Part shown: positions 22,181 to 51,472 of the stretch, one piece after another | Layout of the letters: the number at the start of each line of letters is the position of its first letter | How positions within the stretch are numbered: the stretch's first letter is position 1 | Source: Candidatus Calescibacterium sp. | Lineage (GTDB): Bacteria > Calescibacteriota > Calescibacteriia > Calescibacteriales > Calescibacteriaceae | Assembly: GCA_025060505.1 (NCBI GenBank) | Contig: JANXBU010000008.1 | Coordinates: 32,155 to 96,154, forward strand | DNA length: 64,000 nt | Direction of reading: 5' to 3' | Notes under the pieces: model-generated | What the model saw: only the letters and a program-made list of their open reading frames with translations | Database searches by the model: none | What the model was told of the DNA's origin: nothing | Program-made: the position numbers and the translations under genes

Positions 22181-23575
22181 ATGTCTTCAAACGAAAAATT
22201 TTATCTCAATACTGTGGAAGAAAAAAATGAATCGATATTTATAATCCCAAAGGAACTGCTGAATTTCAAAATAATTGGAAGGAAGATAGTTCCAAAATTC
22301 ATTGAACAAGATGAAGCAGATATAATAAAACTATTTGAACTGTGGAAAAATTCGTTAGGAAAGACAAAAAAAGAGATAAGGGAAAAATTTCAAGCATATG
22401 AGAATTTCTCAAATTACAAAAAAATCAGAGGTTACTTTTATATCCTGAGCAGAATATCTGATTTCAGAAAAGCTTTTGAAAGAGCGGGAGAGCTAAGAGA
22501 ATTTTTGTTCGGTCTCGGTCCAGCTCTCTCCGAATCAGAAAGACAAAACATAGCTCAGAAAGCAAAGAGTACTTTTGGAATAAAACTATCAAGCGATACG
22601 ATATGGGGAGACCTTGATGAAAACTCAGTTCTTGAAGGATTCAAAGAAATGTCAGTTGAAGAAACAATAAAGCTCTACAACTTTTCTCTTCTGTGCGGAA
22701 TAGCTCTGCTATCTCACAAAATAAAGTTCAGAACAACAAATATCGGAAAAGTTCTAAGATACATCAAAAAGCTCAAACTTATGTACGACATAGATACAGA
22801 AGGATGGATTTATGTCTTCGGGCCTGAATCAATTCTTACAGAATCACAAAAATATAAACTTCAACTCTCAAAATGCTTCTACTACCTGCTTAAACAAAAG
22901 AACTCAGATGTGATAGTTGAAACAAAAAAAGGAACTCTTGAAATATCTCCAAAAAACTTAAAGTATATACCAGAATTCGAAACAGAAGAAGAAAAATATG
23001 ACTCAAAAATAGAAGAAGATATATCAAAACTTATCAAAGATGCAATACCCTACGCAACAATTCAAAGAGAAACAGATGCTTTTTTATCAAAATCTGGCAT
23101 ATTCATTCCAGATTTCAAAATAAAAAGTGCAGAGAAAGAAGTCTTTTTGGAAATAGTAGGTTTCTGGACAAAACAATACATAGAAAGAAAAATAGAAAAA
23201 TTATCTGATTTCAAAAGAGAAATAGTTCTTATAGCTTCTGAAGAAAATTCAATTGAAATAAAACAAAAAATACCTCAACATAGAAACCTAATAGTTTTCA
23301 GCAAAAAGATACCCTACCTTGAAATAATAAAGAAAATGAAAGAACTAATAGGATATACGAAAAAACAGGAAGAAATCCAAGAACGAACAAATCAAAGAGT
23401 TTTAGATGAACTCAGAGAAAAACTAAAAGACCAAATGGATTTTTCCGAAGCATCGGAAATAATAAAGTCAAAAGATCTTGATGTAAAAAGCACATTAAAG
23501 ATACTCGGTTTTGAGATTCTATGGGAATCTCTGATTCCACCAAAGGGCAAAATAGTAAAAAAAACGGAAAAATAA
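22181..23575 (+). CDS. DUF790 / Bax1-type structure-specific nuclease
   Basis: 464 residues. The N-terminal two thirds are helical and include the family-like KKIRGYFYILSR near 80-91. The C-terminal part carries a restriction-endonuclease-like core: YDSKIEEDISK (273-283), FIPDFKI with Asp311, VFLEIVGFWTKQYIERK with Glu324 and Lys337. This pattern is that of archaeal DUF790 proteins, known as Bax1, the nuclease that binds XPB helicase and cuts next to DNA bubbles. In archaea bax1 usually neighbours xpb; no helicase gene is in this window. A role in DNA repair is inferred. It is alone on its strand and starts at TATAATG. Confidence 0.7.
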   Translation: MSSNEKFYLNTVEEKNESIFIIPKELLNFKIIGRKIVPKFIEQDEADIIKLFELWKNSLGKTKKEIREKFQAYENFSNYKKIRGYFYILSRISDFRKAFERAGELREFLFGLGPALSESERQNIAQKAKSTFGIKLSSDTIWGDLDENSVLEGFKEMSVEETIKLYNFSLLCGIALLSHKIKFRTTNIGKVLRYIKKLKLMYDIDTEGWIYVFGPESILTESQKYKLQLSKCFYYLLKQKNSDVIVETKKGTLEISPKNLKYIPEFETEEEKYDSKIEEDISKLIKDAIPYATIQRETDAFLSKSGIFIPDFKIKSAEKEVFLEIVGFWTKQYIERKIEKLSDFKREIVLIASEENSIEIKQKIPQHRNLIVFSKKIPYLEIIKKMKELIGYTKKQEEIQERTNQRVLDELREKLKDQMDFSEASEIIKSKDLDVKSTLKILGFEILWESLIPPKGKIVKKTEK

Positions 23576-26745: not shown

Positions 26746-27341
26746 TTAATTTATCTCACTATGCCAGTTAATTATATCTCTCGGTAGGTTATTGAGCTCT
26801 TTTACTATACCTCCCAGCACAGTTTTATGAATTTTAGGTTCAAAGTTCTTTGGCATAAACTCAACCTTATTATTCACATATACTCCGTCGAGAAATAAGC
26901 TTGCAAGAAGTCTATTTTTAGAAGGCTTCTCATTAGTACCCCACTCACTTTCCCATTCATATGAACCGGACTTTTTACCTCTATCCGGTGTTACAAGAAC
27001 ATACTTTATTTTACGCATTAGTCTATAATAGACGGCATAGAAAAGAGTTTCTGTAAGTCTACCGTGCAGGCTGGTCTTACAACTTACTATACAGACAGGA
27101 TAAGAGAATTCCTTTGAATATACCACAATATCAGTATCTCCAGGTGGTAGAAACTACCCCTATAATATACTTCAATACACAAGATCCTGTAAAGCTCCGT
27201 ATTGATTGCCCTTGTGCTTTAGAGCTTCTACCTCATTATTACCCCCTAACTTGATAGTTTCTATATTATCATGGCCTTTCAGAGATTCAATTAAAAAATT
27301 GTAGATATAACTTTCCCAATCCTTACCACTTTTTGAAACAT
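26746..27341 (-). pseudogene. Decayed type II restriction endonuclease
   Basis: A good Shine-Dalgarno site precedes ATG 27341, but the frame soon fails: MFQK runs out of frame at an A5 tract (27330-27334), and one more base would restore SGKDWESYIYNFLIESLKG. Around 27152-27177 the frame meets TGA, TAG and TAG, or needs two compensating shifts to read EVYYRGS. The intact tail (126 codons) has PPGDTDIVVYSK, then the likely catalytic SCKTSLHGRLTET. A catalytic SxK with a downstream R and E is reminiscent of the Cfr10I/NgoMIV/BsaWI group that recognises CCGG cores; this is inference. It follows the methyltransferase relic by five bases. Confidence 0.75.
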
Positions 27342-27345
27342 CTGA

Positions 27346-28141
27346 TTACCTCCTTTTTATCTGATCCGGATTACTTTGTTGCAGATATAGTTCCTTTACA
27401 GTGCTCTGAATCCTTTGGTTTGCAATCTTACAATATTTCTCACTCATTTCTACTCTTATTGCTCTTCTGTTTAACTTCATTGCGGAAACAAGCGTGGTTC
27501 CGGAACCAACAAATGGATCAAGTATTAAGTCATCAATAAAAGAAAAGAGTTTTATACACCTTTTGGGAAGCTCCTTAGGGAACGCAGCCGGGTGCCCACA
27601 TTTTTTTGCTCTCTCCCGAAAAACTCCACAATCCATTGGTTCATTGCACAAATTCATCTTTTGTTATATCAGATATACCTTTTCTTTTCTTTCTCCATGT
27701 TTTTTTATAGAGAACGACTATAACCTCAACTGGAGCTATGACATACGGAGCCGCGGCACTGGGCCATGACCCCCATGCAGTTCTTCTTGATATGTTTCCT
27801 TCGTTCCAAATTATAGTAGAATGGTATCTAAAGCCTATCCTCTTGGCTACATACAGAACGTCTGCATACACACTTTACTATTCACCCTTGTTTTTATCTA
27901 AGAGAATGTTAAAACAAATTCTACCATCTTCTTTAAGAAGTCTGTAAGCTTTTGAGAGCCATTTTTCTGTAAATGACAAGTACTCCTCGTATTTCATCTT
28001 GTCTCTAAAATCTTCATATTCAATCCCAACATTATACGGCGGCGAGGTTATCAGAAGATCTATTGAATTCTCATCAAGTTCAACTCCTAAAAAGTCCCCA
28101 CATATAAGTTTTATACGATCGTTCAAAAAGGTATAATTCAC
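27346..28141 (-). pseudogene. Decayed DNA methyltransferase (beta class, probably N4-cytosine)
   Basis: Three adjoining segments on one strand form one methyltransferase. Segment one (28141-27878) has the catalytic motif TSPPYNVG and ends in consecutive in-frame TAG and TAA codons. Segment two continues in the same frame (VYADVLYVAKRIGFRYHST) to a TGA at 27641, where a Trp would fit (DEFVQ-stop-TNGLWSFSGE). A shift of frame in the GA repeat near 27608-27616 leads to segment three, with the SAM motif DPFVGSGTTLVSAM. The order IV before I is beta class, and TSPPY suits N4-cytosine methylation. At least three stops and one frameshift make it non-functional. Confidence 0.85.
27349..27355 (-). promoter_or_regulatory. 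Shine-Dalgarno of the dead restriction gene
   Basis: AAGGAGG on the minus strand, seven bases before ATG 27341. It overlaps the last codons of the methyltransferase relic, showing the two were once translationally coupled. Its survival suggests recent decay. Confidence 0.65.
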
Positions 28142-49771: not shown

Positions 49772-50026
49772 CCAATGATACGTTGTGTATGACAATTAAT
49801 AAATATAGCGTTTAGAAAATCTCCACAAGACTAGGTTGCAAGTTAATACTAATCTATAGATAACCTGATTAAATTGAATAACTCCACAGGAAAAACATCC
49901 CGGAGATTATCAAAAAGAAATATCATAAAATAACCAAGAAAAAATATAAAACACATCGCAAAAAATATTAACTCTACTTTGAATCAAACATCTTTTGTTT
50001 TTATCCGATTTATAAAATTATCAGTG

Positions 50027-51472
50027 ATGGGACAGCTCAGACAAAATATAGAAGGTAAAACAAGCATTCTTTTGATTGAGGATGATAGAGATGTGGGCGA
50101 ATCAATGAGAAGTGTTCTTTCAAAGCATTTCTGGGTAGATCTTTACAGAACAGCAGAAGAAGCTCTCAATTTTGTTGAGGAGAAAGAATATTCCGTTATT
50201 CTGTGTGATCTTAAACTTCCGGGGATGTCTGGACTTGAATTTTTCAAAGTTCTCAAAGAACGAGGATTTTCGAAACCATTTATCATAATAACAGCGTTTG
50301 GAGATATACCCACAGCAGTTGAAGCAACAAAACTTGGAGTAAACGACTTTATAAGAAAAGGGAGTGTGAGCCCAGATGAACTAATCCAAAAGATATACCG
50401 TGTTTGTGAAGATTCGGACTCCGATTTTGTATGCGCCTCTCCCGTTATGCAAAACATTCTGGGGATCTCAAAGCAAGTCGCAAAAACTGATTCAAACATT
50501 CTCATAGTCGGAGAATCTGGGGTAGGAAAAGAGGTACTTGCCAGATATATACACAAGGTAAGTCCCAGAGCTAACAGACCTTTTGTAGCAATAAACATGT
50601 CTGCTATTCCGGATAACTTGCTTGAATCCGAGCTTTTCGGATACGAGAAAGGAGCTTTCACAGGTGCAGAAAAAAGAAAACTTGGAAAGTTCGAGATAGC
50701 ATCCGGTGGAACACTTCTACTTGATGAAATTGGAGATATGCCACTTCACCTTCAACCAAAAATCCTAAGAGTTATTCAAGAAAGAAAAATAGAACGACTT
50801 GGATACAACTACCCCATAAAAGTTGATGTGAGAATAATCTCAACAACGAACAGAGACCTAGAGAGTATGGTAAAGGAGGGGAAATTCAGAGAAGACTTGT
50901 ATTTTCGTCTTTCTGTTATGCCAATAAAGATACCACCTTTGAGAGAAAGAAAAGAAGATATAATCCCACTTGTTGAACATTTTGTATCGAGACTTTCAAG
51001 AAAATATGAAATAGATGTAAGCATTGGGAATGGCGTTATAGAAAAACTTATGAACTATGATTGGCCCGGAAATGTAAGAGAACTACAAAATGTACTGGAA
51101 AGAGCATTTGTAATATCTTTCTCTTCAAATCAGAAAAAAGTAGTTATAGAACCAAATCATCTTATAGTTTCACCAGAAGATATATGGAAGATACAAATAG
51201 AAAACAAAAATATAGAAAGTAAAACTACCAACGCAACAGATATTCAAAAAACAGTTCAAGAAACATATTCAGCCAAAGAGCGAACTAAAAAAAATATAGA
51301 CTTTGATGACCTTAACATAAGAAATATGGAAAAAACATTTATAATCAAGGCTTTGGAAAGAACTGGTGGAAACAAAACTCAGGCCGCAAAACTTCTTGGA
51401 ATAACTGTAAGAACACTGAGAAACAAACTCAAAGAACTTAAAATGGAGAACGTTGATTCAGAGACGGAGTAA
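50027..51472 (+). CDS. Sigma-54-dependent response regulator (NtrC family)
   Basis: 481 residues from the ATG at 50027; the open frame starts at a TTG 16 codons earlier, which adds a non-receiver stretch. The receiver domain has phospho-acceptor Asp61 in VILCDLKLPGMSG. The AAA+ domain has VGESGVGKEVLARYIH (Walker A), the sigma-54 contact loop ELFGYEKGAFTGA and LLLDEIGDMPLHLQ (Walker B). The C-terminal Fis-type helix-turn-helix is GNKTQAAKLLGITVRTLRN. It activates sigma-54 promoters when phosphorylated. Its kinase is not adjacent. Confidence 0.93.
   Translation: MGQLRQNIEGKTSILLIEDDRDVGESMRSVLSKHFWVDLYRTAEEALNFVEEKEYSVILCDLKLPGMSGLEFFKVLKERGFSKPFIIITAFGDIPTAVEATKLGVNDFIRKGSVSPDELIQKIYRVCEDSDSDFVCASPVMQNILGISKQVAKTDSNILIVGESGVGKEVLARYIHKVSPRANRPFVAINMSAIPDNLLESELFGYEKGAFTGAEKRKLGKFEIASGGTLLLDEIGDMPLHLQPKILRVIQERKIERLGYNYPIKVDVRIISTTNRDLESMVKEGKFREDLYFRLSVMPIKIPPLRERKEDIIPLVEHFVSRLSRKYEIDVSIGNGVIEKLMNYDWPGNVRELQNVLERAFVISFSSNQKKVVIEPNHLIVSPEDIWKIQIENKNIESKTTNATDIQKTVQETYSAKERTKKNIDFDDLNIRNMEKTFIIKALERTGGNKTQAAKLLGITVRTLRNKLKELKMENVDSETE

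Follow-up and report, generated by a model that had tools for sequence, protein, structure and literature searches.

A Bax1-type (DUF790) nuclease gene in Calescibacterota and its probable XPB partner, encoded elsewhere in the genome

The window analysed here (by which is meant the whole 64-kb stretch of DNA) comes from a hot-spring bacterium, a relative of Candidatus Calescibacterium (Calescibacterota), and its bax1 gene, at 22181..23575 on the + strand, very probably encodes the nuclease component of an XPB-Bax1 helicase-nuclease of the archaeal type, the helicase of which is encoded elsewhere in the same genome; we would put the probability of this reading, which includes acquisition from an archaeon (most likely together with xpb), later unlinking of the two genes and a function additional to that of UvrABC, at roughly 85%. 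A sequence-only reading of the same DNA had described the gene as a Bax1-type nuclease without its XPB partner, a description that must be given up: the partner had been thought absent because only 64 kb was looked at, and a full-length XPB sits on another contig, so that the supposed orphan nuclease can be removed from the list.

In the solved archaeal complexes XPB opens bubble or fork DNA or moves along it, with Bax1 cutting close to the junction (PMC7293015, PMC7672443, PMC13024598), and by homology with these the Calescibacterota proteins probably form a complex and cut at junctions in the same way. The thumb and HD2 of XPB would dock on the N-terminal domain of Bax1. At a bubble or fork XPB would open the DNA or travel along it, and incision of one arm, where double-stranded DNA gives way to single-stranded, would fall to the PD-(D/E)XK domain of Bax1 (E278/E279, D311, E324, K337). 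Such a pair would supplement the UvrABC set of excision repair: UvrA and UvrB are present in the genome as full-profile matches and UvrC scores above its cut-off, and the presence of all three implies that XPB-Bax1 would be an addition to, and not a replacement of, bacterial excision repair. Complex formation, cutting activity, the excision-repair role and the joint transfer of the two genes are what we infer; the identities of the proteins, their motifs, their co-occurrence and linkage and the phylogeny of Bax1 are direct results of the analysis.

As regards the gene itself, an ORF for 464 aa with an ATG start lies just where the earlier reading had placed it, and both of the sequence elements to which that reading had drawn attention, FIPDFKI and VFLEIVGFWTKQYIERK, are found in it. 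It is apparently monocistronic, with a divergent marC upstream and a gap of 245 nt before the next ORF downstream. The Pfam profile PF05626 (DUF790) matches residues 22-385 with E=4.9e-68 and 230 bits, against a cut-off of 28.8, and the match covers profile positions 2-386 of 387; this is the only DUF790 protein in the whole genome. A phmmer search against solved structures returned Bax1 of Pyrococcus furiosus (8gy8, 2e-44) and of Archaeoglobus fulgidus (6p66_B, 6e-39), and Sulfurisphaera Bax1 (6p4w and 6p4f) was also matched. Scores against the NCBIfam equivalog models for endonuclease Bax1 (NF053694 and NF053695), which are strict models named after the Archaeoglobus (ARCFU) and Sulfurisphaera (SULTO) proteins, were 203 and 193 bits and so fell under the curated cut-off of 500 bits. 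Judged by its sequence and its modelled fold, the ORF is a genuine DUF790/Bax1-type nuclease, as had been proposed. An Rfam scan of the 64-kb window gave no match, and a scan for promoters and terminators found nothing beyond chance level.

The domain order is the one common to Bax1 from Archaeoglobus fulgidus (Af; 6p66) and Sulfurisphaera tokodaii (St; 6p4o/6p4w/6p4f), as are the catalytic residues and the N-terminal interface residues, at 24-32% identity. All features are on the + strand, and their predicted limits derive from alignment to 6p66_B, from the borders given in PMC7293015 and from an AlphaFold2 model. The N-terminal domain, which in Af Bax1 is the surface that binds the XPB thumb and HD2 (PMC7293015), should comprise residues ~22-157 (22244..22651), and is followed by a central Cas2-like domain (CRD, residues ~177-262, 22709..22966), a PD-(D/E)XK nuclease (NUS) domain (residues ~270-391, 22988..23353; placed also by structure search) and a C-terminal helical domain (residues ~395-464, 23363..23572; from the model and the published borders), which occupies the place of the dimerisation/CTD domain of Af Bax1. 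In the archaeal protein the XPB interface and a second nuclease site involve F119, Y131, D133, E135, Y155 and N156 (PMC7293015), to which F132, W142, D144, D146, Y166 and N167 correspond here (22574..22681), meaning that all six are conserved or conservatively changed; the second of the N-terminal acidic residues, E135 in Af, is D in the window protein and N in the orthologue of one related genome (G002).

Within the nuclease domain, the residues D311 (23111..23113), E324 (23150..23152) and K337 (23189..23191), which the earlier reading had proposed as active-site residues, do align with D305 (D301 in Ss Bax1), E318 and K331 of Af Bax1, and all three are invariant across 41 archaeal and three Calescibacterota sequences. 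D305 and E318 are described as active-site residues in Af, with E275 as the published third acidic residue (PMC7293015); E279 is the residue that aligns with E275, while its neighbour E278 is the invariant glutamate among the same 41 plus three sequences, the pair forming the first acidic motif at 23012..23017. Among 18 other bacterial Bax1s examined alongside, D311 is retained, E324 is kept in 16 of 18, and the K337 position is K or R in 17 of 18; eight of the 18 have V, L or I at the E278 position (loci L105-L117 and others), and many of these proteins are without the RE motif (R296-E297). On these alignments the nuclease site of many bacterial Bax1s outside Calescibacterota may be altered.

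The AlphaFold2 model has a mean pLDDT of 88, and comparison of the predicted structure with known ones places it with Bax1: the only significant Foldseek matches are eight Bax1 chains, and in the VIA comparison Bax1 takes the first five places at Z 22-23, after which the score falls to Z 9. The orientation of the domains differs from that in the crystals, giving an rmsd of 6-8 A over ~350 residues. Other nucleases (VRR-Nuc, Can2, Hjc, BsaWI) have the nuclease domain fold in common with it, for most of them at Z 6-9 over residues 270-393, but the N-terminal and central domains of Bax1 are not seen in them, and they are relatives at superfamily level only.

For the window itself it is true, as had been stated, that no helicase of the XPB kind is present (tblastn with three XPBs). 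A search of the full genome nevertheless finds one, a protein of 446 aa encoded on contig C27 (G000:C27:210149-211486), bax1 being on contig C104. Pairwise comparison gives E=1e-109 and 370 bits with Af XPB, and 3e-97 and 330 bits with St XPB2 over residues 47-436. Its N-terminal part, the first 58 residues, is short as in St XPB2, and hardly any gaps are needed to align its thumb-bearing region with Af XPB. Walker A, DEVHH, RED (R203, D205) and QRLGRILR are all present and are conserved in the XPB alignment, so that, like the archaeal systems, this genome has an XPB with thumb and RED motif. It belongs to the same bacterial XPB helicase family as mycobacterial and actinobacterial XPB, but keeps the thumb region that, according to PMC3353954, Mtb XPB is without; the same paper gives Mtb XPB a more extended N-terminal domain and states that a Bax1 partner had not been identified. 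In two of the Calescibacterota genomes the gene immediately upstream of xpb encodes a protein of 136-140 aa with hydrophobic stretches (L002 2832-3242, - strand; L007 1079-1501, + strand; 32% identity), which overlaps the start of xpb in G001 and of which the copy in the window's genome (G000) is without a Pfam match.

Turning to the origin of the pair, the Bax1 tree comprises 62 rows, of which the archaeal ones were taken as best matches to the window protein, making the sampling not neutral. All three Calescibacterota proteins are united in a single clade (100/100), whose sister is a mostly Archaeoglobi clade (100/97); 39 archaeal rows belong to the wider group in which it is nested (100/100), and outside that group, separate and more divergent, fall the remaining 18 bacterial rows together with two haloarchaeal ones. 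One might suppose instead that the pair reached Calescibacterota by descent within bacteria and has merely diverged, with no archaeal source. For XPB there is something to be said for this, as the test does not reject placing it with bacteria plus haloarchaea (p=0.29; 54/84 in the 60-row tree); in the 47-row tree (7 bacterial) the Calescibacterota XPBs have the same sister group as in the Bax1 tree, at 93/92, and in the 60-row tree (20 bacterial) a 100/99 branch keeps them on the side of the archaea, though the Archaeoglobi placement is weakened there and their position among archaea is not settled. For Bax1, in contrast, constraining the Calescibacterota proteins to group with the other bacteria is rejected both with haloarchaea included (p-AU 9.6e-4) and without them (p-AU 2.8e-9), and while choosing archaea by similarity to the query could exaggerate nearness, it is unlikely to create supported nesting. 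Inheritance within bacteria is accordingly an unlikely explanation, and there is good support for bax1 having been acquired from an archaeon, one near Archaeoglobi, with acquisition of xpb in the same event as the simplest reading; the genes would then have become unlinked later. The earlier suggestion of an archaeal-type nuclease “acquired by, or ancestral to” the lineage stands in its first part, which the tree favours, while for the phylum, with three of five genomes carrying the gene, it could still be ancestral. By composition there is no strong signature of recent foreign transfer, the GC content of bax1 being 0.31 against 0.353 for the window and GC3 being similar. A phage or plasmid origin was considered and set aside: no phage match was found, and the plasmid matches were to Deinococcus and haloarchaea at 20-26% identity.

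The distribution of the two genes within the phylum was assessed in a sample of five genomes. Both are present in three (G000, G001 and G002) and both are missing from the other two (G003 and G004), although the genomes are only 82-86% complete. The absences can be looked at directly, as G002, G003 and G004 belong to the same genus: in G002 bax1 follows murA-lgt, and at the orthologous site in G003 (lgt alone in G004) the contigs run on into other genes with no bax1, which excludes an assembly gap at that site. In all three carriers bax1 and xpb are unlinked, and because of this their joint absence suggests, at the stated completeness, that they depend on each other. By the same token the unlinked state means that there is no operon argument for a complex here. 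Nor does bax1 have a conserved neighbour, since none of the genes that surround it in the window turns up in G001 or G002 within 6 kb of their bax1; a homologue of the window ORF 49934-51469, which lies 26 kb from bax1, is found near bax1 in G002.

The archaeal XPB-Bax1 genes differ in being overlapping neighbours, found in archaea and not, as here, unlinked in a bacterial host with complete UvrABC; adjacency is usual in archaea (XPB is in the flank of 69 of 78 archaeal bax1 loci, and several of the remainder end at a contig edge) without being a requirement, and the Calescibacterota pair is an instance where it is lacking. Nor is a Bax1 exceptional in a bacterium: DUF790 occurs above cut-off in 28 of 386 sampled bacterial genomes (about 7%), from 20 families, and every one of the 28 has a full-length XPB, scoring 469 bits or more against the XPB profile. 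No XPB of comparable score occurs in the 358 genomes without DUF790, where only five helicases pass E=1e-40, at 139-216 bits. XPB and Bax1 are thus strictly paired in the sampled bacteria, in that no Bax1 without XPB was found. Outside Calescibacterota bax1 adjoins xpb at 19 of 25 bacterial loci, and unlinked pairs occur in four of the sampled bacterial families (that of the Calescibacterota, f48, f80 and f98). Pairs of the same two families, always together in the sampled genomes, are adjacent and overlapping on plasmids of Deinococcus and of haloarchaea such as Halobacterium; the Bax1s of these bacterial and haloarchaeal pairs are mostly XPB-adjacent and form a separate set, whereas that of Calescibacterota groups with archaea. 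One of the five lower-scoring helicases (L152, G178:C236:26497-27729) is a diverged XPB-like protein with no DUF790 in its genome and 108 bits to St XPB2.

These figures bear on the possibility that Bax1 works alone or with some other helicase (UvrB, a RadD-like protein or another SF2 member), the XPB homologue having an unrelated job, which is close to what the earlier reading had in mind in proposing another partner or a standalone role. The unlinked state of the genes in all three carriers is what one would expect on that basis, and Bax1 from Af and Ta does show nuclease activity without XPB (PMC7293015). Set against this are the fact that in the phylum the two genes, though unlinked, are either both there or both missing, the co-occurrence in 28 of 28 genomes across 20 bacterial families, and the retention in Bax1 of the residues at the XPB interface, and a standalone role seems quite unlikely.

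Taking bacteria and archaea together, we lean slightly towards a more general view, namely that XPB-Bax1 is an obligate two-gene repair module of both domains, one that passes between them as a pair, whose two genes are acquired or lost together even when unlinked, and which would provide a second route of bubble or fork incision beside UvrABC. When DUF790 was put in the PD-(D/E)XK superfamily in 2005 it was called almost exclusive to Archaea and Cyanobacteria (PMC1189080), and a 2012 paper on Mycobacterium XPB noted that a bacterial XPB-Bax1 complex had not been identified (PMC3353954); a literature search, with subscription journals mostly outside its reach, found no title or abstract describing an XPB-Bax1 pair in bacteria. 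The strict pairing is the most useful by-product of the present analysis: DUF790 in a bacterium should be taken to mean a Bax1 that has an XPB partner, adjacent or not, and the perfect co-occurrence makes a bacterial XPB-Bax1 complex a concrete prediction, testable in cultured hosts such as Deinococcus. On plasmid P1 of Deinococcus gobiensis a gene of the spore photoproduct lyase family (L154 501-1565) lies just upstream of the XPB-DUF790 pair, a neighbour in keeping with a role of the pair in DNA damage.

It might also be asked whether the helicase on contig C27 is really an XPB, or a defence helicase like PbeA, of the phosphorothioation type, in a genome that truly has no XPB. It does score 199 bits against PADLOC PbeA and 140 bits against TIGR04095, and falls under the NCBIfam cut-offs for XPB/rad25. 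However, it is pairwise close to archaeal XPB (370 bits to Af and 330 to St), it is without the N-terminal region of ~220 residues found in PbeA, the neighbours of the gene are housekeeping genes, and it passes PF16203 and falls in the tree with archaeal XPBs that adjoin bax1, all of which makes a defence helicase very improbable. Least likely of all is an assembly or binning artefact, in which an archaeal contig would have entered a bacterial bin: the genomes are indeed MAG or single-cell assemblies, but bax1 lies between bacterial genes of similar GC3 and codon use on a 96-kb contig, xpb is on a contig of 352 kb, and orthologues are present in a second MAG and in the assembly of Ca. Calescibacterium nevadense.

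A further observation concerns the part of the window downstream of bax1, where 26746-28141 on the - strand holds what is left of a type II restriction-modification system. A BsaWI-type endonuclease survives as a fragment at 26746-27126 (PF18643), and the sequence of an N6/N4 DNA methyltransferase is divided between two ORFs, at 27346-27657 and 27878-28141, which match profile positions 156-220 and 1-57 respectively.
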